DNA from: Zetaproteobacteria bacterium CG1_02_55_237
GTDB lineage: Bacteria; Pseudomonadota; Zetaproteobacteria; Mariprofundales; Mariprofundaceae
NCBI GenBank assembly: GCA_001871195.1
Contig: MNXA01000039.1
Span: 1 to 64,000 of the forward strand
Direction: 5' to 3'
Length of the DNA: 64,000 nt
Shown: positions 6,105-19,382 of the stretch, in pieces
Position numbering within the stretch: the first letter of the stretch is position 1
How the letters are laid out: the number at the start of each line of letters is the position of its first letter
Notes under the pieces: generated by a model
Databases searched by the model: none
The model's input: the letters and a program-made list of their open reading frames with translations, nothing else
What the model was told of the DNA's origin: nothing
Translations under genes and position numbers: made by a program

Positions 6105-7310
6105 TCAGCCCGGTTTACCATCCACCCGAGCGTGCAACAGGATGGAGGCATAGCGAAGACCGACAATTATAAACGCAATGATCCAGCACGTTGCACTGAT
6201 AATGACCGATGCGTCAAGCAGGACTGGCTCAATAAGCGGGGGCAGAATACGAATCAGGGTGGCAAGCAATAGCAGGATAAAGGCTGCCGGCATCCATGGC
6301 AGAGCTGTGATATTGCGACCCGTATGTCCGAGCGCGACTCGGGCCATCATGCCGAGTGTAAACATACCGATAGCCCCCACCGTCCAGGCATGGATGGCCT
6401 GCACGGTCGGGATGCCGATAAACATACTGATGGCATAGATTAAAAAGCCTGCGACCAGCCATGCATAGCCGGCATGCAACACCCATAACATCGGCTGCTG
6501 CAGAATGGCCTTATTAAACCAGCCGATCAGTCGTGCACCATGAATCAGGGAGGCAAAGAATGCGGCAAGGATGATCAGCCAAGGCTGGCCAGTCGCAATC
6601 GTCAAGGCAAACAACAACACCGATGGCAGGGCCAGTTTCTCAATCGTCTTGTTGGCAACAGGCCGCAGCGCAATGGCCCGCTGCATGAAAAAGGGAACGA
6701 CACGTCCGGCAATCAGCACAATCAGAGCGACAATCACAACAACTGCAAGCTGCATGGCCTGAGCGGAAACATCTCTGGCATAGCCCAGTACTTCAGCATG
6801 TACAGCTGCATTGCACAGGCCGAGCAGCAGGAGCAACAGGGGGATCGGGTAATTATTAGATTGCTTTGCCTGCAGGAGTAATCTGGCGAGGACAAGGGCC
6901 AGCACTGGCAGAAACAACATATCAAGCAGGGCAAAGGCAACTGGCGGGATGAAGGAAGCGGCTGACAGGAGTCTTGGTGCCAGCCATAGCAGGGTGAGAA
7001 GGGCCAGCGATGTGCCGGATGATGTATCCAGCCCGGTCCAGTTGCGTACCGATGTAAGCAGAAAGCCCGCAATAACAGCCACTGCATAAGCAAAGACCAT
7101 TTCGTGTGCATGCCACAGGGATAGATTGAAATAGTTGTTTTGCCACAGGCCAGATGAAAAGCCGCCAAGAGAGACCAGCATTAACAACACCGCAAAACAG
7201 ATGCCGAGCAGGAAAAAGGGGCGAAAGCCAAGTGCCAGCAGCGCCCATTTTGATGGCCCGGAAGGTCCCTTCTGAGTCTCAATCTCAATGGACACCGGTG
7301 TGCCGGACAT
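6105..7310 (-). CDS. nnrS: NnrS family membrane protein
   Basis: Polytopic membrane protein of 401 residues with about 12 hydrophobic segments. The hallmark LWHAHEMVFAYAVAVIAGF is near residue 65, followed by LTSVRNWTG, and a GRVVPFF motif lies in the middle; the WHAHE histidines are candidate metal ligands. NnrS proteins contain haem and copper and relieve nitric oxide stress in several proteobacteria. It starts one base after the sufT stop, so it is co-transcribed with the Fe-S assembly genes. This placement suggests protection of Fe-S clusters against NO, which is inference. Confidence 0.9.
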   Translation of the reverse strand: MSGTPVSIEIETQKGPSGPSKWALLALGFRPFFLLGICFAVLLMLVSLGGFSSGLWQNNYFNLSLWHAHEMVFAYAVAVIAGFLLTSVRNWTGLDTSSGTSLALLTLLWLAPRLLSAASFIPPVAFALLDMLFLPVLALVLARLLLQAKQSNNYPIPLLLLLLGLCNAAVHAEVLGYARDVSAQAMQLAVVVIVALIVLIAGRVVPFFMQRAIALRPVANKTIEKLALPSVLLFALTIATGQPWLIILAAFFASLIHGARLIGWFNKAILQQPMLWVLHAGYAWLVAGFLIYAISMFIGIPTVQAIHAWTVGAIGMFTLGMMARVALGHTGRNITALPWMPAAFILLLLATLIRILPPLIEPVLLDASVIISATCWIIAFIIVGLRYASILLHARVDGKPG

Positions 7311-7311
7311 T

Positions 7312-7863
7312 TTAGAACATGCCTAGTTGCAGCTTGGCCTCGTCCGACATCATTGACCGGTCCCATGGGGGGTCGAAAACCAGCTCAACATCCACCTCGG
7401 TGACATTGTCCACATCCAGCAGGTGGGCGCGCACATCTTCAACAAGGATCGGGCCCATGCCGCAGCCGGCCGCGGTCAGCGTCATGATCACCTCGACACG
7501 GTTGCCGGGTTTCAGCGGGGTGATGTCGCAATGGTAAATCAGGCCGAGATCAACGATGTTCACCGGAATCTCCGGGTCATAACACTTCTCCAGCGCCTCC
7601 CACAGCGCATCCTCATCAACGGGTCCTGCAGGCACTTTGCTTTTCCCTGTTTCATGCTCCGTGCTTTCCAGGCCCAGCGCATCGGCATTGCTGCTCTCGA
7701 TGCGCGCCAGATTGCCGTTGATATTGACCGTATATGAACTTCCCAAGGCCTGCGTGATCATCACCCTACTGCCTTCGGGGATGGTTACCGGTGTACCCAT
7801 GGGAATGAGTAGTGCTTCGCAGTCGCGCAGCACCGTAATGTTTTCTCCGATATGAACGTCCAC
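7312..7863 (-). CDS. sufT: SufT, DUF59 Fe-S assembly protein
   Basis: 183 residues. The N-terminal part (about 1-60) is the SufT-specific extension. The C-terminal DUF59/MIP18 domain starts at DEDALWEALEKCYDPEIPVN and carries the conserved TAAGCGMGP cysteine. SufT helps mature Fe-S proteins downstream of the SUF scaffold and is common where sufU is present. It follows sufU by three bases and abuts nnrS. Confidence 0.93.
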   Translation of the reverse strand: MDVHIGENITVLRDCEALLIPMGTPVTIPEGSRVMITQALGSSYTVNINGNLARIESSNADALGLESTEHETGKSKVPAGPVDEDALWEALEKCYDPEIPVNIVDLGLIYHCDITPLKPGNRVEVIMTLTAAGCGMGPILVEDVRAHLLDVDNVTEVDVELVFDPPWDRSMMSDEAKLQLGMF

Positions 7864-7866
7864 CGT

Positions 7867-8322
7867 CTACTCCGTTTTGGCCGGTTCGGGCCTGTCTTTG
7901 ACTGCTGCAAGCAGCGTGTGCCAGCACAGCGTGGCGCATTTGATACGGCTGGGGAACTCGCGCACCCCGGCCAGCACGGTCAACTTGCCCAAGACCTCTT
8001 CATCAGGCGCTTCATCAAGCTCTGAGGTGGCCATGTGCTGGAAGTGCCCGAACATATCCTCGGACTCCTGCATGGTTTTTCCCTTCAGCGCATCGGTCAT
8101 CAGTGAGGCACTTGCCACCGAGATCGCACAACCTTCACCTTCGAAGGATACATCCTCAATCACGCCCGCATCATTCACCTTCAGGTAGACATGCAGCTTG
8201 TCGCCGCACAGAGGGTTGTAGCCATCCGCCTCATGGTTGAAGTCGGCAAGTTTGCCGAAATTGCGCGGGCTTTTGTTGTGATCGACAATCACCTGCTGGT
8301 ACAAATCTCTCAGATCAAACAT
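7867..8322 (-). CDS. sufU: SufU/IscU-type scaffold or sulfur acceptor
   Basis: 151 residues of the IscU/SufU fold. The conserved cysteines appear in NPLCGDK, GEGCAISVAS and RIKCATLCWH. The insertion between the second and third cysteine, with its position next to sufS, matches SufU rather than IscU. In Gram-positive bacteria SufU is a zinc protein that accepts sulfur from SufS; the same role here is inferred. It lies 34 bases after sufS. No sufE is seen in the operon, which fits SufU taking that role. Confidence 0.92.
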   Translation of the reverse strand: MFDLRDLYQQVIVDHNKSPRNFGKLADFNHEADGYNPLCGDKLHVYLKVNDAGVIEDVSFEGEGCAISVASASLMTDALKGKTMQESEDMFGHFQHMATSELDEAPDEEVLGKLTVLAGVREFPSRIKCATLCWHTLLAAVKDRPEPAKTE

Positions 8323-8356
8323 GCAAAACCTCGATTCAAGGCTGTGGGAAGAATCC

Positions 8357-9577
8357 TCATGCGAACAGCTCCTGTGCCTTGGTCAGAGCGGCGAACAAAG
8401 CATCTACCTCGCCCCTGGTGTTGTAGGCGGCAAACGAAGCGCGGGCGGTGGCCGGCACGTGGAAATGCTGCATCACCGGCATGGCGCAGTGGTGGCCGGC
8501 GCGAATGGCCACGCCTTCGCGATCCAGAATGGTGCCCAGATCATGCGGGTGCACACCCTTGATGGTGAATGACAAAACCGAAGCCTTATCTCGCGCTGCG
8601 CCAATGATCCTCAAGCCGTCGAAGGCCTTTGCTTTCTCTGTGGCATAGGCGAGCAGATCGTTTTCATGCGCGGAGGCAGCATCAATGCCCGTTTTCTTCA
8701 GCCAGTCCACAGCAGCACCAAAGCCAATGGCACCGGCGATGTTCGGCGTACCCGCCTCGAATTTATAGGGCAGATCGTTGTACTGCGTTTTCTCGAAGGT
8801 GACCATGGTGATCATATCGCCGCCGCCCTGGTATGGCGGCATGGCATCAAGCAAGGCCTCTTTGGCATAGAGCATGCCGATGCCTGTCGGGCCATACATC
8901 TTATGCGCGCTGGTTACATAGAAATCGCAATCCAGTGCCTGCACATCAACATGCAGGTGGGCCAGCGCCTGTGCGCCATCGAGCAGCACCTTCGCGCCGA
9001 CCGCATGCGCCTTTTCGATAATCGTCTTCACCGGATTGATGGTGCCCAGCGCATTGGACAGATGGACAATGCCAACCAGCCTGGTGCGCTCGCCAAGCAG
9101 CGAGTCCAGCTGATCCATGCACAACTCACCGGCATCGTTGATCGGCAACACCTTAAGGGTTGCGCCAACGCGTTCGCACAGCATCTGCCACGGCACGATA
9201 TCGGAATGGTGTTCCATCTCGCTGACCAGCACCTCATCACCGGCACCGATATTGGTCATGCCCCAGCTGGAGGCGACCAGATTGATGGCTTCGGTGGCGC
9301 CGCGGGTGAAGATGATTTCGCGCCGGCTGGTCGCGTTGAGCAGCTCGCGAATCTTGTCGCGCGCCGCCTCATAGCTGGCGGTGGCGCGCTCGGAGAGGGC
9401 ATGCACGCCGCGATGCACATTGGCGTTGTCGCGTTCGTAATAATGCCGCACGGCATCGATCACGCTTTGCGGCTTTTGCGTCGTGGCTGCATTATCCAGA
9501 TAGACCAGCGGCTTGCCGTACACCTCCTGGTGCAGGATAGGAAACTCGGCCCGGACCTTTTCTACATCAAACATCAT
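8357..9577 (-). CDS. sufS: cysteine desulfurase SufS
   Basis: PLP-dependent class V aminotransferase fold of about 406 residues that removes sulfur from cysteine for cluster assembly. The PLP lysine is in VTSAHKMYGPTGIG and the persulfide cysteine in RAGHHCAMPVM, the short-loop form of group II (SufS) desulfurases. An upstream in-frame TTG at 9595 is open, but AAGGA sits properly in front of the ATG pair at 9577/9574. It sits between sufD and sufU. Confidence 0.96.
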   Translation of the reverse strand: MMFDVEKVRAEFPILHQEVYGKPLVYLDNAATTQKPQSVIDAVRHYYERDNANVHRGVHALSERATASYEAARDKIRELLNATSRREIIFTRGATEAINLVASSWGMTNIGAGDEVLVSEMEHHSDIVPWQMLCERVGATLKVLPINDAGELCMDQLDSLLGERTRLVGIVHLSNALGTINPVKTIIEKAHAVGAKVLLDGAQALAHLHVDVQALDCDFYVTSAHKMYGPTGIGMLYAKEALLDAMPPYQGGGDMITMVTFEKTQYNDLPYKFEAGTPNIAGAIGFGAAVDWLKKTGIDAASAHENDLLAYATEKAKAFDGLRIIGAARDKASVLSFTIKGVHPHDLGTILDREGVAIRAGHHCAMPVMQHFHVPATARASFAAYNTRGEVDALFAALTKAQELFA

Positions 9578-9601: not shown

Positions 9602-10861
9602 TCATCCCAGCATGGCCTCGGCATCTGTACCGAAGGGAAGTTTCGAGAAGGCAGCCTTTTCGATAAAGCGGCGCAGTGCAGGCAGGCTGATGCCGGTGAG
9701 TACCTCATCGGCGAAGGCGAAGGTCAGCATCTGCCGTGCCTCCTCCGCGGATATGCCGCGCGATTTGAGATAAAACAATTGCTTATCATCCAGCTGGCCG
9801 ATGGTGCAGCCATGTGCAGCCTTCACATCATCATGGTGAATCACCAGCTCAGGCTTGGCATCGATTTCCGCTTTGTCGGAGAGCAGCAGGTTGGCATTTT
9901 TTTGTGCCGAGTCGGTGCCGGAAGCCCCTTTATGCACAACCACCTTGCCGTTGAACACGCCATGGGCGCGATCATCGAGCACGCCGCGATAATGCTCGCG
10001 GCTGGTGCAGTGTGGCGCACGGTGATCAATCTGCGTGTGATGATCCGAGTGCTGCCTGCCGGTCGGCATATACAAGCCGTCCAGCTTGCATGCAGCACCG
10101 GGACCGGCCAGGTCAACCGCGATATCCAGGCGCGCCAATGAGGCACCGAGGGCAATGGCGTGCGAGGTAAAGTTGCTGTCCCGACCCTGCCAGACATCCA
10201 GGCGGCCGAGATGAAACTGCTTGAGCGACTCGTCCTGCAAGCGGTCATGTGTCAGTTGCGCCGCATCACCCAGATGCACCAGCGTCACAGCATGCGTAAG
10301 ACCCGGCTCTTCATTTACGCCGGCATAGTGCTCAATCACATGGGCGCAGGCTTCTTTGCCCAGCCACAGGCCATGACGCAGATGCGAAGCACCGGATTGG
10401 CTTGCGATGTGCAGCACATAGATCGGCTTGTCGAGTTTCACGCCATCGGCAAGACACAGACAGACGCCATCCTCAGCCAGTGCGCTGTTGGCGGCGAGCG
10501 CGCCATTGAACAGTGGCGCATCGGCATCCCAGGCAAGAGCCTTGACGGCCTGTTCGCCATTGGTGGCTAATAGCTCGGAAAGTGGTGTGAGCGCTGCACC
10601 TGCAGGCAGGGATGAGGCGCTGGACACAAGGCGGCCATCGGCAAAGACGATACGCCAGGCATCGAGATCGGGGATGGCCAGCGCATCAATGTCATCAGTC
10701 GTGAGGCCTGTCGGTTCAGCTGCCGTCCACCATGTTTCACCCAGTGTGCTGCTGATGCGAGCCAGAGAGGTATATTTCCACTCTTCCTGACGCGTGGTCG
10801 GAAGGCCGGCCTGTTCAAAGGCACCCCATGCACCTTTTCGGAATTCAGCAAGCTTAGGCAT
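9602..10861 (-). CDS. sufD: SufD, SUF scaffold subunit
   Basis: Subunit of the SufBC2D scaffold, 419 residues from the ATG at 10861. That start has GAGGAAG six bases upstream and overlaps the end of sufC by eight bases; a longer open frame to 10885 is less likely. The SufB/SufD beta-helix is recognisable in the C-terminal half ([40 protein letters not shown]), where the histidine of AAHGCTIG corresponds to the one placed near the cluster at the SufB-SufD interface. Confidence 0.93.
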
Positions 10862-11606
10862 GAGCTTCCTCACGCACCCAGTCATAACCGCGCTTCTCCA
10901 GTTCCAGGGCCAGCTTACGGTCGCCGGTTTTCAGGATGCGACCATCGACCAGCACATGAACGAGATCCGGCTCGATATAGTCGAGCAGGCGCTGGTAATG
11001 CGTCACCATGACAACGGCGCGATCGGCTGCACGCAGCTTATTCACGCCGCCGGCCACCACGCGCAGTGCGTCGATATCCAGACCTGAATCGGTTTCATCA
11101 AGGATGGCCAGGCTCGGCTCCAGCACGGCCATCTGGAAGATTTCATTGCGTTTCTTCTCGCCGCCGGAGAAGCCTTCGTTCACACCGCGCGACAGGAAGG
11201 CCTGATCCAGCTCGACCAGCTTGGCTTTTTCGCGTACCAGTTGCATGAACTCCATGGCATCCAGCTCTTCCAGACCCTGATGCTTGCGACGGGCGTTCAG
11301 TCCGGCCTTGAGTAGATACACATTGTTCACGCCGGGAATTTCCACCGGATACTGGAAGGCAAGGAATACACCCGCCCAGGCGCGCTCTTCCGGCTCCATG
11401 GCAAGCAGATCCTGCCCGTGGAAAGAAATGCTTCCGGCCGTCACCTCATAGCCATCGCGACCGGCAATAACATTGGACAGTGTGCTCTTGCCTGAGCCGT
11501 TCGGCCCCATGATGGCATGCACCTCACCGGGCTTCACCGTCAGGTTGATGCCCTTCAATATCTTCTTGCCATCTACCGAGGCATGCAGGTTTTCAATCTT
11601 CAACAT
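10854..11606 (-). CDS. sufC: SufC, ATPase of the SUF scaffold
   Basis: ABC-type ATPase of 250 residues that drives conformational change in SufBCD. Walker A is GPNGSGKS (35-42), the signature is GFSGGEKKR, Walker B is [12 protein letters not shown] and the H-loop is VMVTHYQ. SufC proteins typically carry EEPRAWAG-like text before the Q-loop, here [17 protein letters not shown]. The gene lies 20 bases after sufB. Confidence 0.97.
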
Positions 11607-11626
11607 ATTAAGAATCCTTTTCCATT

Positions 11627-13068
<1,442 letters not shown>

Positions 13069-13072
<4 letters not shown>

Positions 13073-13560
13073 TGTGGATTCCCATTCATTTCATTGCCCT
13101 GTGTGACCGGCATGCGCGCATCGGCATAACGTTTTTCCAGACGCAGTACCGGGGTGAAACCCGGTTCGATCATGTCGGCCAGCGAAATATCGCTGAGTGT
13201 GCCGCGCACTACCTGATTGATGATGTGCCAGTTGCCGCGCGTGTTGCAGTGTTCCTGCTGCTCGCAACGGCTGTGATCAAGACTGCACTCGGTGAGTGCG
13301 ATCGGCCCTTCAAGCGCGACGATGATGTCGCGGATGGAAATCTGGGATGCCTCGCGGGTCAGCCTATAGCCGCCACCAGCACCACGCACCGAGGTGAGCA
13401 GGCCGTCGCGCAACAGCAACTGAAGAATCTTGCTGACCGAGGGTGCGGGCAGGTGCGAACGGGCCGCGAGTGCCGCGGCATTGAGCACATGCTCTTCAGC
13501 CTGTGCCAGCTCGGTCATCAGCATGACGCCGTAGTCGGTCAGCCGCGTTATGCGGAACAT
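13069..13560 (-). CDS. Rrf2-family regulator of the SUF operon
   Basis: 163-residue Rrf2-family regulator with an N-terminal winged helix (about 1-70, including [13 protein letters not shown]) and three cysteines at 92, 99 and 105 ([15 protein letters not shown]) in the IscR spacing that binds a [2Fe-2S] cluster. It resembles the SUF-system regulator branch of Rrf2 proteins more than classical IscR. It is the first gene of the operon and lies directly downstream of an IscR-like operator, so negative autoregulation by the cluster-bound form is likely. Confidence 0.92.
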
Positions 13561-13710: not shown

Positions 13711-14442
13711 ATGCAACTGGCGCTGAGTACATGGCAGGAGGTGGAGCGGTATCTTGAGTCATCCACCGGCATCATTATTCCCATCGGCTCGACCGAACAG
13801 CACGGCCCGAACGGCCTGATCGGCACCGATGCCATCTGTCCCACACGCATTGCGCAGCAGATTGAAGCAAATGCGGATGTGTTAATTGCTCCAGCCATCA
13901 ACTACGGCATGTCGGCGCATCATATGGCCTTTGCCGGTTCGGTGACGCTGAAGCCAACCACCCTGATGCAGGTGGTGATAGATGTGGTTAGTTCGCTCCG
14001 GCAGCACGGCTTTACGCATTTCTATTTTCTCAACGGCCACGGCGGCAATATCCCGCCGGTCACATCGGCTTTCTCCGAGCTGTATGCAGGTATGTCCGAA
14101 AATGATCCGCCGCTGCGCTGCCGCATGGCCAACTGGTGGCGCAATGATGAAGTAAAGAAACTTGCCGCCGAGTTATACGGTGAAGCCGAGGGATTTCACG
14201 CCACGGTCAGCGAGGTGGCGCTGAGTTATTACGCTTATCCGGAAGCGGTTAAAAATGTATCCCTGACTCCCGAAGTCGCGCCGACCGATGAGTTCTTCGA
14301 TGCCTTCGATTTCCGCCGCAAATTTCCCGATGGTCGCATTGGCTCCAATCCTCAATTGGCGACAGTGGAAGCCGGTGAAAGATTCTGCCAACTCGCTGCC
14401 GAAGCACTAAGTGCTGATTATCGAAATTTTCTCGCAAGCTGA
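13711..14442 (+). CDS. creatininase-family amidohydrolase
   Basis: 243 residues with the creatininase fold. Metal-site residues are visible in GSTEQHGP (Glu29, His31), GTDAI (Asp40), NGHGGN (His110) and FHATVSEVAL (a later Glu). A strong ribosome site AGGAGGTGA precedes the ATG. The family includes creatinine amidohydrolase and enzymes of flavin, riboflavin-analogue and peptide cofactor pathways, so the substrate is unknown. It is divergent from the suf operon and followed by a terminator, so it is monocistronic. Confidence 0.88.
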   Translation: MQLALSTWQEVERYLESSTGIIIPIGSTEQHGPNGLIGTDAICPTRIAQQIEANADVLIAPAINYGMSAHHMAFAGSVTLKPTTLMQVVIDVVSSLRQHGFTHFYFLNGHGGNIPPVTSAFSELYAGMSENDPPLRCRMANWWRNDEVKKLAAELYGEAEGFHATVSEVALSYYAYPEAVKNVSLTPEVAPTDEFFDAFDFRRKFPDGRIGSNPQLATVEAGERFCQLAAEALSADYRNFLAS

Positions 14443-14520: not shown

Positions 14521-15993
14521 TCAGTGCATCAGACACCGTGCGACGGCCCATATCTGTAGCGGTTGCGTTGAACTGTTCGAAACAGGGAAATAGCCATGCT
14601 GGGCTGTTACTGTCCAAGCATTCGGAGCACCAGGCTGATTCAGGAGAACCTGGAACAGATTGTAAGGCATGAGCCGAACTCCAGCGTTGGTTAATACCCT
14701 GTACCCCCCCCCCGTTGCAACGTATCCCACAGGGCAAATAGCAGCGACGGTTACAGGAGGGGCGTTGGGGATCAGCGGCACTGCAGCGGAGTAGGCCACA
14801 TATGCCCGCATGGGGTTGTTCGGGCCTGCCGGACCCTGTGGGCCTGGTACACCCTGTGGGCCTTGAATACCCGGAGGGCCAACAATGGACATGCCACGCA
14901 GACCCTGCGGGCCAACTGCACCTGCCGGGCCAGCCGGACCCGTGTGGCCTGTCAAGCCAACCGGACCCTGCGGGCCAACCGCACCATCAATACCGTTGGT
15001 GCCATTGATGCCGTCTGCACCTTTAGCGCCCTTTGGACCTGCTGGGCCTGTCAAGCCGATTGGACCCTGCGGACCAACAGCGCCATCAGCACCGTTGGTG
15101 CCATTGATGCCGTCTGCACCGTTTGCACCTGCTGGGCCAGTCAAACCAACCGGACCCTGCGGGCCAACCGCACCATCAACACCGTTGGTGCCATTGATGC
15201 CGTCTGCACCGTTTGCGCCTGCTGGGCCGGTCAAACCAACCGGACCCTGAGGGCCAACCGCACCATCAACACCGTTGGTGCCATTGATGCCGTCTGCACC
15301 GTTTGCGCCTGCTGGGCCAGTCAAACCAACCGGACCCTGAGGACCAACCGCACCATCAACACCGTTGGTGCCATTGATGCCGTCTGCACCTGCAGGGCCT
15401 GTCAAACCGATCGGGCCCTGAGGGCCGGTTGCACCTTTAGCTCCGGTCAAACCAATCGGACCCTGAGGACCAACCGCACCATCAACACCGTTGGTGCCAT
15501 TGATGCCGACTGCACCTGCAGGGCCTGTCAAACCGATCGGACCCTGAGGGCCTACAGCACCAGTTGCGCCTGTATCACCCTTCAGGCCCTGAGGGCCGGT
15601 TAAACCGATCGGACCTTGTGGACCGACTGCACCGTCAACACCGTTGGTTCCGTTAATACCATCTGCACCCGCGATACCCTGTGGTCCTTGCGCGCCGGTT
15701 GCACCGGTCAGACCCTGCGGGCCGGGTGTTAGTTGAATGTTTGCAATGGCGCTCGCGTTTCCCGCAATGGCTGCGGCATTCGCATCCACCTTGGCGGCCA
15801 CACCGCTTAACTTCAGCTTATTGTTGGTAATATCGGAATCATGTTTGCTGGTTTTTGCTTTCTCAGAAGCAATCTCAAGATCATGCCTGTCCTCTCGTAC
15901 CTCATCTGCCAATGCAGGCTGGGCAAAGGATACCGACATCAACAATGCTAATCCCGCCACCCATGGGTTATTTGGTGTTACTATATATTTCAT
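14521..15993 (-). CDS. exported collagen-like protein
   Basis: 490 residues from the ATG at 15993, which has a GGGAGAGGG ribosome site. A signal peptide ([18 protein letters not shown], cut near residue 29) precedes a charged linker (31-90). Residues 91-392 are Gly-X-Y triplets, about 93 in a row, then one IV interruption and 7 more. Common triplets are [27 protein letters not shown] and GAV. The last 98 residues form a separate domain with two cysteines ([15 protein letters not shown] and AVARC). The layout suggests a secreted trimeric stalk with a C-terminal trimerisation or binding head. No LPXTG or autotransporter barrel is visible, so how it is held at the surface is unknown. Confidence 0.88.
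14818..15723 (-). repeat. Gly-X-Y coding repeat tract
   Basis: This 0.9-kb tract encodes the collagen-like triplets. Units drift from short 27-45 bp blocks at its 5' end (minus strand) to near-perfect 90-bp units in the middle, a pattern expected from unequal crossing-over. Confidence 0.9.
15121..15390. repeat. three near-identical 90-bp tandem units
   Basis: Units starting at 15121, 15211 and 15301 differ at only a few positions (for example GGGCCAG versus GGGCCGG, and CTGCGGG versus CTGAGGG). Each encodes ten Gly-X-Y triplets. They are young enough for copy number to vary between strains. Confidence 0.9.
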
Positions 15994-16143: not shown

Positions 16144-16173
16144 ACCTTGGATATACGACCAGTCGTACGACTT
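16144..16173. promoter_or_regulatory. palindromic box 1
   Basis: ACCTTGGATATACGAC followed by CAGTCGTACGACTT. The core TACGAC-CA-GTCGTA is a perfect 6-bp inverted repeat with a 2-base spacer. It lies about 150 bases upstream of the collagen-like gene and shares its first 16 bases exactly with box 2. It is probably an operator for a LuxR-type regulator. Confidence 0.6.
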
Positions 16174-16200
16174 TTGTCTGGGGAGTCAGGCGCTGATGAA

Positions 16201-16590
16201 TCAGATGGCTGTCTGCAAGACCTGCAGTCTTTTCTTCAAATCATTGAAATTGATCGGTTTGGTGAGCACTGGGATTTGCTTGCAGGCAATTTCATTCTGC
16301 AGGGCTTGGCTGGAATAGCCGCTCATGGCAATGATGGGTAATGTTGCATGGTGCCTGCGAACATGCTGAATCAATTCCAAACCATTCACATGCGGCATGC
16401 ATATATCCGTAATCAATATGTCCAGTTGCGATGCGAGCTTGTTAAAAAGCGCCATGGCCTGCCAGCCATCGGGTGTCATCGTGACCTGATGGCCCAGCCG
16501 CTCAAGAAACTCATGAAAAATCTCGCGAATGGTCGGATCGTCTTCCGCGACCAGTATGTGGAGTTTTCGATTGCTACAGGATTCGCCCAT
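16201..16590 (-). CDS. single-domain response regulator
   Basis: 129 residues forming one receiver domain and nothing else. The acidic pair is in LVAEDDPTIRE, the phosphoacceptor Asp in LDILITDICMPHVNG, Ser in PIIAMSGYS and Lys in PVLTKPI. With no output domain it acts by binding a partner or as an intermediate in a phosphorelay. It lies between the two palindromic boxes, with box 2 about 75-105 bases upstream of its start, and next to a LuxR-type regulator and a hybrid kinase. Confidence 0.92.
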   Translation of the reverse strand: MGESCSNRKLHILVAEDDPTIREIFHEFLERLGHQVTMTPDGWQAMALFNKLASQLDILITDICMPHVNGLELIQHVRRHHATLPIIAMSGYSSQALQNEIACKQIPVLTKPINFNDLKKRLQVLQTAI

Positions 16591-16663
16591 ATCTCCTCCC
16601 GATCACATCATACTGGATGCAATCGGGAAGAGCATAATTTCGCCCGGAAGAAAAACCCATTGC

Positions 16664-16693
16664 ACCTTGGATATACGACTAGTTGTATGACCT
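16664..16693. promoter_or_regulatory. palindromic box 2
   Basis: ACCTTGGATATACGAC followed by TAGTTGTATGACCT. It matches box 1 except for single C-to-T changes in the right half (core TACGAC-TA-GTTGTA). It lies in the divergent promoter region between the receiver-only gene and the LuxR-type regulator gene. Confidence 0.6.
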
Positions 16694-16733
16694 TTTTCTT
16701 GTGATGGGTTGTGTTATCTATTAGAAATCACCC

Positions 16734-17357
16734 GTGCAAATTCTCCTGATTGATGACCATGAACTTTTCCGCTCCGGGATGGCGACAGCCCTGCGTATGC
16801 TTGATGAAAGCGTGGCCATTCTTGAGGCTGATTCCATCGCTTCCGGCCTGTCTGTCATTGAAACAACAAGCAGTACGCTTGATCTTGTTCTGCTTGATCA
16901 TGAGTTGCCCGATGGAAACGGCATCTCCCTGTTGCAGCGTATCCGTATGAATCACCCGCTTATCCCTGTGGCCATGCTTTCCGGCGTGGAATGCCCGAAG
17001 CTCATGAAGCAGGCGCTGGAAGCCGGTGCCCTGGGTTATCTCCCTAAAGCCACCAGCACACCTATCGTACTTTCGGCAATCCATCTCATGTTATCCGGTG
17101 GCATCTATGTGCCGCCCAAGCTGTTGCCTTCGCTTGGCGCATCTTTGCCCTCCCATGCGGTGCAGGCGAAGGTGAGCGATGAAGGGTTGACCGAGCGACA
17201 ACTGGAAGTGATGAACCTGATTGGTCAGGGCTTGTCGAACAAAGAGATTGCCTGGCGGCTGAATATCAGCGAAGGCACCGTCAAGGCGCATGTCACGGTC
17301 ATTTTGAAAGCCAAAGGGGTGCACAGCCGCAAGCTGCTTATTGTTTCAGGCGGTTAG
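16734..17357 (+). CDS. NarL/FixJ-type response regulator
   Basis: 207 residues from a GTG start: an N-terminal receiver (IDDHELFRSG, phosphoacceptor in LVLLDHELPDG, Lys in LGYLPKATS) and a C-terminal LuxR helix-turn-helix (about 148-203; LTERQLEVMNLIGQGLSNKE, ISEGTVKAHV). It is a DNA-binding response regulator. It converges on a hybrid kinase 21 bases away, its probable partner, and has a palindromic box about 40-70 bases upstream, which suggests autoregulation. Targets could include the collagen-like gene, which carries the same box. Confidence 0.93.
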   Translation: MQILLIDDHELFRSGMATALRMLDESVAILEADSIASGLSVIETTSSTLDLVLLDHELPDGNGISLLQRIRMNHPLIPVAMLSGVECPKLMKQALEAGALGYLPKATSTPIVLSAIHLMLSGGIYVPPKLLPSLGASLPSHAVQAKVSDEGLTERQLEVMNLIGQGLSNKEIAWRLNISEGTVKAHVTVILKAKGVHSRKLLIVSGG

Positions 17358-17378: not shown

Positions 17379-19382
17379 TTAGGGTCTGTTCTGCCTCAGA
17401 AACAATTTCAATTTGGCAGGCATTACAGGCTTTTGCAGCATGAAAACACCTGAGTTGGTAATCTCCTGAAGTACTTCTTCTTGGGTTTCCCCGGTCATAA
17501 TCACGGCGGGGATTTGCTTCTTAAACAGGGTCCGGATCTCTTGAGCCACCTGCAAGCCGGTTGCATTGCACGGCAGCCTGTAGTCTGCAATCAGCGCATC
17601 CGGCATCCACCCATCCTTTACAATCGCCAGCGCCTCACCGGAGCTGCCGGCTATCATGACTTCGCAGCCCCATTCCTGCATGAGGATCGCGGCTGATTTC
17701 CGGATGGCTGCATCATCCTCAAGAATCAGGACGCGCATGCCGGCAAACGATTCGTGCTGCAAAGATAAAGCTGAAGGCGCACTGGCGGTCTCGACAGTCT
17801 CCGCCTTCGGCAAGGTGATGCGGAAGCAGCTGCCATGCCCCGATCGGGATGCAACTTCGATCGTATGATCCGGTAGTAAATGCACCATCCGGTTCACAAT
17901 GGACAGGCCCAGGCCAAGCCCTTTGCTCCTGTCCCGCTCAGGATTTCCCAGCTGATAAAATTCATCAAAAATATGCTCCAGCTGCTCTTCAGGAATGCCA
18001 ATTCCCGTATCCCGGACTTCAACCAGCACTTTGCCCTGCCTACAACGACAGGCCACCAGAATTTTGCCGTGATCCTCTGTGTAGCAAATGGCATTGCTTA
18101 CTAGGTTGTTCAAAATGCATTCGAGCATCATAAGGTCGGATTCAACATCACAACACGTTAAACGTGCCCGTAGATCAATCTTCTTTTTTTGCGCAATTAG
18201 GGAATAATCTCTGATCAGGTTATCAATGAGTATGTTGAGCTTGATCGGTTGCAGCTTGGGCACGACCACCCCTGCATCCAGTTTCGAAATGTCGAGCAGG
18301 GCATCCATAATCCGCCCCATTGAGCTGTGGGACTCCCGCAGGGCCGCAATCATCTCAATATCTTCGGACTGTTTAAGTCGTTGCGAAAGGATCTCGATGT
18401 AGAGCGACATGGCTTGCATCGGCTGGCGAAGATCATGGCTGGCCGAGGCCAGAAAACGGGTTTTTTCAGCGCTGGCATGATCAGCTTTGTCTTTAGCTAG
18501 GCGGAGTGCCTTTGTTCGTCTTTCGACCTCTTTCTCCAGCAGCTCATTATGATTCACAAGCCTCTGTTGATTCTCCATCAACATCTTAAATTCAGTGATG
18601 TCGCCGGCTGTACCAATCAAGCGTATCGGGTTACCAGTTTCCGATCGATCGATAACCTTTCCGCGCGTGAGCAACCATACGTATTCACCACTTTCAGATC
18701 GAACTTGCTGTTCAATTGCATAATTATCGGTTTTGTTGTCTAAAATATCCTGAAACAGTTGCAAAGTCTTGGCCTGACTATCCGGATGCAATCGTTCTGC
18801 CCAATCATTCAGATAATAATTCGCGTTCGGCAAGGTCATGTCAAAACCCAATATTTCTTTCATGCGCTTCGAAACCGTATTTACCCCGGTAAGAAAATTG
18901 TAGTCCCATACACCATCGCCGGATCCCTCAAGAGCAAATAGCCAGCGCTCTTTGTTTAGCCGGAGCGCTTCATTAAGATGTTTCTGTTCGGTGATGTCAC
19001 TGGCTATGCATAACCGGACAGGGCGATTGTTAAGCTGAATCATGCGGATGCAGTAGGAAACCCAGACTACCCCCTCATCTTTGCGCGCTAGCTGCATTTC
19101 ATGTTGATTACATTTCTCACCGCAGCCTTTGCCCAAAATGTTTGTTTGTCTGAATTCTTCTTGAAAGTCCTCTTGGATGATTGCCAGAAAAGGCATGCCT
19201 AGCAGTTCGTGCTCTGAATAGCCTGTCAAAGATAGGGCAAAAGAATTGGCATAGCAGATGTTTTCGCCCTGCAGAACAAACACTGCTTCTTGCATGGACT
19301 CGACAACGGTTTGAAAAAAGCCCGCATCATCAATAGCCCTGCAATGACCTGCAAGACTATTGGTTAACGACCCCTCCTCCAT
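17379..19382 (-). CDS. PAS hybrid histidine kinase
   Basis: 667 residues without convincing membrane segments. Two PAS domains (about 20-135 and 140-270, each ending in an ITEQK or ITEFK signature), a coiled linker, HisKA with SASHDLRQPMQAMS, HATPase (NLVSNAICYT, VRDTGIGIP, GLGLGLSIVNRMV) and a C-terminal receiver (LILEDDAAIRK, ALIADYRLP, LQKPVMP). The SHDLRQP H-box is typical of kinases that pair with NarL-type regulators such as the one convergent at 16734-17357. The signal is unknown; the PAS domains point to a cytoplasmic cue. It has only a weak ribosome site. Confidence 0.92.
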   Translation of the reverse strand: MEEGSLTNSLAGHCRAIDDAGFFQTVVESMQEAVFVLQGENICYANSFALSLTGYSEHELLGMPFLAIIQEDFQEEFRQTNILGKGCGEKCNQHEMQLARKDEGVVWVSYCIRMIQLNNRPVRLCIASDITEQKHLNEALRLNKERWLFALEGSGDGVWDYNFLTGVNTVSKRMKEILGFDMTLPNANYYLNDWAERLHPDSQAKTLQLFQDILDNKTDNYAIEQQVRSESGEYVWLLTRGKVIDRSETGNPIRLIGTAGDITEFKMLMENQQRLVNHNELLEKEVERRTKALRLAKDKADHASAEKTRFLASASHDLRQPMQAMSLYIEILSQRLKQSEDIEMIAALRESHSSMGRIMDALLDISKLDAGVVVPKLQPIKLNILIDNLIRDYSLIAQKKKIDLRARLTCCDVESDLMMLECILNNLVSNAICYTEDHGKILVACRCRQGKVLVEVRDTGIGIPEEQLEHIFDEFYQLGNPERDRSKGLGLGLSIVNRMVHLLPDHTIEVASRSGHGSCFRITLPKAETVETASAPSALSLQHESFAGMRVLILEDDAAIRKSAAILMQEWGCEVMIAGSSGEALAIVKDGWMPDALIADYRLPCNATGLQVAQEIRTLFKKQIPAVIMTGETQEEVLQEITNSGVFMLQKPVMPAKLKLFLRQNRP

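Follow-up and report, generated by a model that had tools for sequence, protein, structure and literature searches.

Transcriptional control by the CrbS/CrbR system (MxtR/ErdR), described in Pseudomonas and Vibrio, is accomplished by a hybrid kinase and a LuxR-type response regulator (PMC5715377, PMC9927353). Activation of acs by CrbR in Pseudomonas fluorescens depends on the ACTU motif, which has the form GAC-N4-GTC and must be symmetric for activation to occur (PMC5715377). In P. aeruginosa, ErdR acts as a repressor of many targets as well (PMC9927353). SgmT/DigR in Myxococcus xanthus comprises a hybrid kinase and a DNA-binding response regulator that control extracellular matrix and secreted proteins via a defined site and that are linked to c-di-GMP (PMC3509222). 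We analyzed a window (the whole stretch of zetaproteobacterial DNA under study, 64,000 nucleotides) in which a hybrid kinase and a LuxR-type response regulator (RR) lie near a gene for a predicted secreted collagen-like protein. The features of the locus are as follows.

14521-15993, minus strand: collagen-like protein, predicted secreted (PF01391, E=5.6e-46)
16144-16171: box 1, putative collagen-side operator copy, ACCTTGGATATACGACCAGTCGTACGAC
16162-16171: core of box 1, GTCGTACGAC
16201-16590, minus strand: receiver-only protein, 129 aa (PF00072), divergent from the RR
16664-16691: box 2, putative operator in the divergent RR/receiver promoter, ACCTTGGATATACGACTAGTTGTATGAC
16682-16691: core of box 2, GTTGTATGAC
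16699-16727, plus strand: predicted RR promoter, with -35 TTGTGA at 16699-16704, a 17-nt spacer and -10 TAGAAA at 16722-16727
16734-17357, plus strand: RR, 207 aa, with a receiver domain (PF00072) at 3-110 and a GerE (LuxR/NarL) domain (PF00196) at 152-203
17379-19382, minus strand: hybrid histidine kinase, 667 aa, PAS-PAS-HisKA-HATPase-receiver, NahK/ErcS-like

The RR has the order of receiver and LuxR-type HTH domains found in ErdR/CrbR response regulators (NF041830). ErdR was also its best NCBIfam match, at 131.9 bits, which is far under the curated cut-off of 390. The kinase gene stands tail to tail with that of the RR. Its two PAS regions (PAS_9 and PAS_3) set the kinase apart from CrbS, which has an SLC5 transporter and STAC domains; a Pfam search of the kinase gave no match to the SLC5 domain. 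The neighbors also differ, being surface-protein genes here and acetate genes in the CrbS/CrbR system. The catalytic and receiver part of the kinase resembles NahK/ErcS-type hybrid kinases (NF041832, near_NosP_CTERM) at 335.9 bits, under the curated cut-off of 400 and far under NahK's own cut-off of 1500. The ortholog in genome G047 scored 335.5 bits, and the kinase is 56% identical over 432 aa to the kinase beside the closest RR ortholog. Compared with SgmT/DigR (PMC3509222), the locus shares a hybrid kinase with a DNA-binding RR, matrix or secreted targets (putative here) and a c-di-GMP link; in contrast, the M. xanthus kinase and RR are orphan genes, and SgmT has GAF and GGDEF domains. By analogy only, the locus would work like CrbS/CrbR and SgmT/DigR.

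The collagen-like protein matched PF01391 at 154.6 bits against a cut-off of 27.2, and has a signal-peptide-like start, 100 Gly-X-Y triplets and a 99-aa C-terminal domain. The Gly-X-Y repeat region is shared with the Lcl and Scl collagen-like adhesins; however, the protein is far under the adhesin cut-offs (161.9 bits against Lcl, NF046116, with a cut-off of 500) and its ends are different. Because the RR, the kinase and the collagen-like protein all scored under the nearest NCBIfam cut-offs, none was filed as ErdR, NahK or Lcl. A search of 120 relatives for the C-terminal domain gave no match in another genome at E<=0.001, and among about 400 genomes of the phylum 3 had matches, all of them weak (E 5e-4 to 0.007). 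The coding sequence of this domain contains a run of ten C at 14704-14713 (G10 on the coding strand). No other homopolymer of the window reaches 9, the genome as a whole has about nine such runs of G, this one included, and slippage here could make the end of the protein phase-variable. The collagen repeats at 14946-15594 are also tandem repeats at the DNA level (90, 126 and 180 bp, 86-97% matching) that could change length by recombination. Elsewhere in the window, SufB (11627-13072, by NCBIfam) lies within 9602-13560, where neighboring frames that look SufC-, SufD- and Rrf2-like by inspection of the sequence suggest an ordinary Fe-S assembly cluster.

The initial annotation of the window had described two boxes with 16 shared bases, one upstream of the collagen gene and one in the divergent promoter of the receiver-only gene and the RR, and both the boxes and their context were confirmed. 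The first 16 bases are identical (16/16), as are 25 of 28 overall; each of the 3 differences over the 28 bases is a C in box 1 and a T in box 2. The interval from the 3' end of the receiver-only gene to the start codon of the collagen gene (15993, minus strand) holds box 1, and that from the receiver-only gene to the GTG start of the RR (16734, plus strand) holds box 2. The 24-mer of the annotation had 2 matches in the 64-kb window compared to 0 in 100 dinucleotide shuffles. A genome search for scattered copies, allowing up to 3 mismatches to the 28-mer, gave exactly 2 matches in 2,328,739 bases (99.99% complete); both were intergenic and both were at the collagen/RR locus. This excludes the many scattered copies that would have counted against the annotation's reading. 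As repeats, the boxes run in the same direction and flank exactly the receiver-only gene (16144-16691), as if it had been inserted with duplication of an operator.

The annotation had also proposed a TACGAC-N2-GTCGTA palindrome within the boxes. Box 1 has this palindrome without a mismatch, and box 2 departs from it at one base (GTTGTA); it was not seen in the aligned upstream regions of relatives, and was for that reason rejected as the conserved element. The part that relatives share is GTCGTACGAC, 6 bp to the right. Box 1 carries an exact AGTCGTACGACT and is the closer of the two boxes to the conserved core; the core of box 2 has two departures from GTCGTACGAC and, compared with relatives, is shifted 3 nt toward the start. 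The exact core was found at 2 places in the genome, box 1 and C28:32761; the latter falls within a reading frame of 753 aa and was dismissed as a chance match. Both boxes have a pair of the GAC-N4-GTC type, GACTTTTGTC (exact) in box 1, with a perfect GAC-TTTT-GTC pair at 16169-16178, and GACCTTTTTC in box 2. The pair in box 2 ends beside the predicted -35; at box 1, no -35 was found in the direction of the collagen gene. The CrbR ACTU motif consists of inverted GAC-N4-GTC pairs just upstream of a -35, an arrangement that box 2 may share; unlike that motif, the core here is a double site around GTCGTACGAC.

The RR has orthologs at 45-60% identity in 15 further genomes of the family. In an ungapped, start-anchored alignment of 16 relatives, most, from several other genera, had a core related to GTCGTACGAC centered approximately 50 nt before their own start, along with TTGCAT at -35 to -30 and TGAAAT at -12 to -7, six bases before the start. 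The -35 and -10 of the RR in the window fall at the same columns, and the promoter looks leaderless; because its -10 ends only six bases before the GTG, RNA synthesis would start at or beside the start codon. Pairs of the form GAC-N4-GTC or GAC-N4-ATC were seen left of the core in eight orthologs (L034, L035, L126, L129, L037, L125, L127 and L128), the last four of these with a shortened right half. The closest RR ortholog (L121) has a diverged box, and some orthologs, such as L039, have no clear site. Seven relatives likewise have a receiver gene divergent from the RR, but its identity to that of the window is only 25-32%.

A matrix was built from the sites of 16 relatives, with the genome of the window excluded, and the 64-kb window was scanned on both strands. 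Box 2 scored highest (15.0) and box 1 second (14.8), followed by a third site at 11.7. A single site of at least 14.7 arose in 14% of 200 dinucleotide shuffles, and two such sites in none. No such box was found upstream of the two other matching NarL-type RR genes of the same genome. When 100 relatives were searched with a loose 18-mer, allowing 3 mismatches, the matches were mostly noise.

We also searched 61 genomes of the family, 14 of which have an RR ortholog, for RGTCGTACGACY. Intergenic cores were present in 8 of the 14 genomes with the RR compared to at most 1 of the 47 without it (Fisher p = 8e-6), a test that partly counts itself, most intergenic sites being the RR's own promoter. 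When that promoter was left out, sites remained in 3 of 14 compared to 0-1 of 47 (p = 0.01-0.035), for which the statistics are thin. These remaining sites stand before the collagen gene in the window's own genome, a PilZ gene in G027 (L088) and a PAS-GGDEF-EAL gene in G034 (L090). Directly beside the PilZ-gene box (L088, 6570-6660) is a near-perfect hairpin, GTTGTATGTCCCCC-ATTT-GGGGGACATACAAC, with the half-site-like ACATACAAC in its arms. In G034 (L090, 4120-4839), the neighbor of the box-bearing GGDEF-EAL gene is 67% like the creatininase-like gene (13711-14442) that adjoins the collagen gene in the window, hinting that the two regions may be a shared locus.

Taken together, these data indicate that both boxes are probably operators of the RR encoded at 16734-17357, which would control its own gene and the collagen gene. 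The annotation had read the boxes as a shared operator of this LuxR-type regulator, and the boxes of RR orthologs, the relatives-only matrix and the co-occurrence support that reading at the level of sequence. The hybrid kinase would phosphorylate the RR, and the phosphorylated dimer would bind half-sites of the TACGAC/GTCGTA type, in tandem pairs around the GTCGTACGAC core. At box 2, the RR would sit just upstream of its own leaderless promoter and control it, and perhaps the divergent receiver gene as well. Its binding at box 1 would put the collagen-like protein under its control. Activation is the more likely sign of control, by analogy with CrbR and from the location of box 2 directly ahead of the -35. 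On the collagen side of box 1, there was no -35/-10 pair at the spacing of the RR promoter, and a scan for consensus sigma-70 promoters found none. Because no clear sigma-70 promoter stands beside box 1, it is from the box itself and from similar loci that we infer control of the collagen gene by the RR. For the same reason, more than one reading of box 1 is possible: it could serve an activator-dependent promoter that lacks a -35, or it could be a relic of duplication.

The latter reading is the main rival. It holds that box 2 is the operator of the RR and that box 1 is a leftover copy from insertion of the receiver gene or duplication of a segment, with no role for the collagen gene. The same-direction boxes bracket precisely the receiver gene, and a weaker similarity is seen just beyond them; the closest ortholog locus has no receiver gene between the RR and the surface gene; and box 1 has no clear promoter beside it. 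A decaying relic, however, would be expected to match worse, and box 1 with its exact AGTCGTACGACT is nearer the conserved core than box 2 and has the additional perfect GAC-N4-GTC pair. We regard a relic as unlikely.

The boxes could alternatively be operators of another transcription factor, for example another NarL-type RR of the genome, which has at least two more NarL-type RR-kinase pairs. NarL-type regulators bind similar inverted repeats. This explanation is improbable given that the box travels with the RR orthologs, and that neither of the other two RR genes has it upstream. An origin of the boxes as dispersed-repeat copies, or a role as RNA hairpins or terminators, has next to no probability. 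The palindromic sequence speaks for it; yet only two copies occur in 2.33 Mb, a number by which a dispersed-repeat origin was rejected, the conserved core is a loopless perfect palindrome unsuited to a hairpin, and the core of box 2 is upstream of the RR transcript start proposed above.

Counting that of the window, there are 4 loci in which the RR or its ortholog is found beside a NahK-like kinase. Three of these 4 loci also have a large, presumed secreted repeat protein near the RR, which in the window is the collagen-like protein. In the closest ortholog locus (G047:C62; RR 60% and kinase 56% identical), the RR is divergent from the gene for a protein of 1835 aa with Big_9 (Ig), cadherin and TSP3 domains, with no receiver gene between them. 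In G037, the RR-kinase pair is beside a 1604-aa DUF4347/Ig protein, approximately 1.6 kb from the RR, and a second perfect TAGACTTAAGTCTA site lies between the RR and the gene for this protein. No giant secreted protein adjoins the fourth locus, in G105 (L132). By analogy, these loci suggest that the system may govern surface or matrix proteins together with c-di-GMP-linked genes. It is conceivable, if still short of an even chance in our estimation, that kinase, RR and operator form a cassette, conserved in Mariprofundus-like bacteria, by which large secreted repeat proteins are switched. The target would then be swapped between lineages (collagen-like here, Ig/cadherin-type elsewhere) while the regulator and the operator type stay constant. 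Near a second NarL-type RR-kinase locus of the window's own genome (L070, G000:C29), there is a G12 run at 6116-6127, and the frame of the kinase appears split (6354-7301 and 7286-8641), a possible frame-variable kinase or assembly error.

The locus is well supported as a new regulon of a familiar type. Among the papers searched, we found none that joins collagen-like proteins with Zetaproteobacteria. The regulator, the kinase, the operator and the targets are proposed here together, and the short operator is directly testable. Relatives of this bacterium build extracellular iron-bearing stalks (PMC8250860). If true, the proposed control would give a handle on how such bacteria turn their surface proteins on and off.
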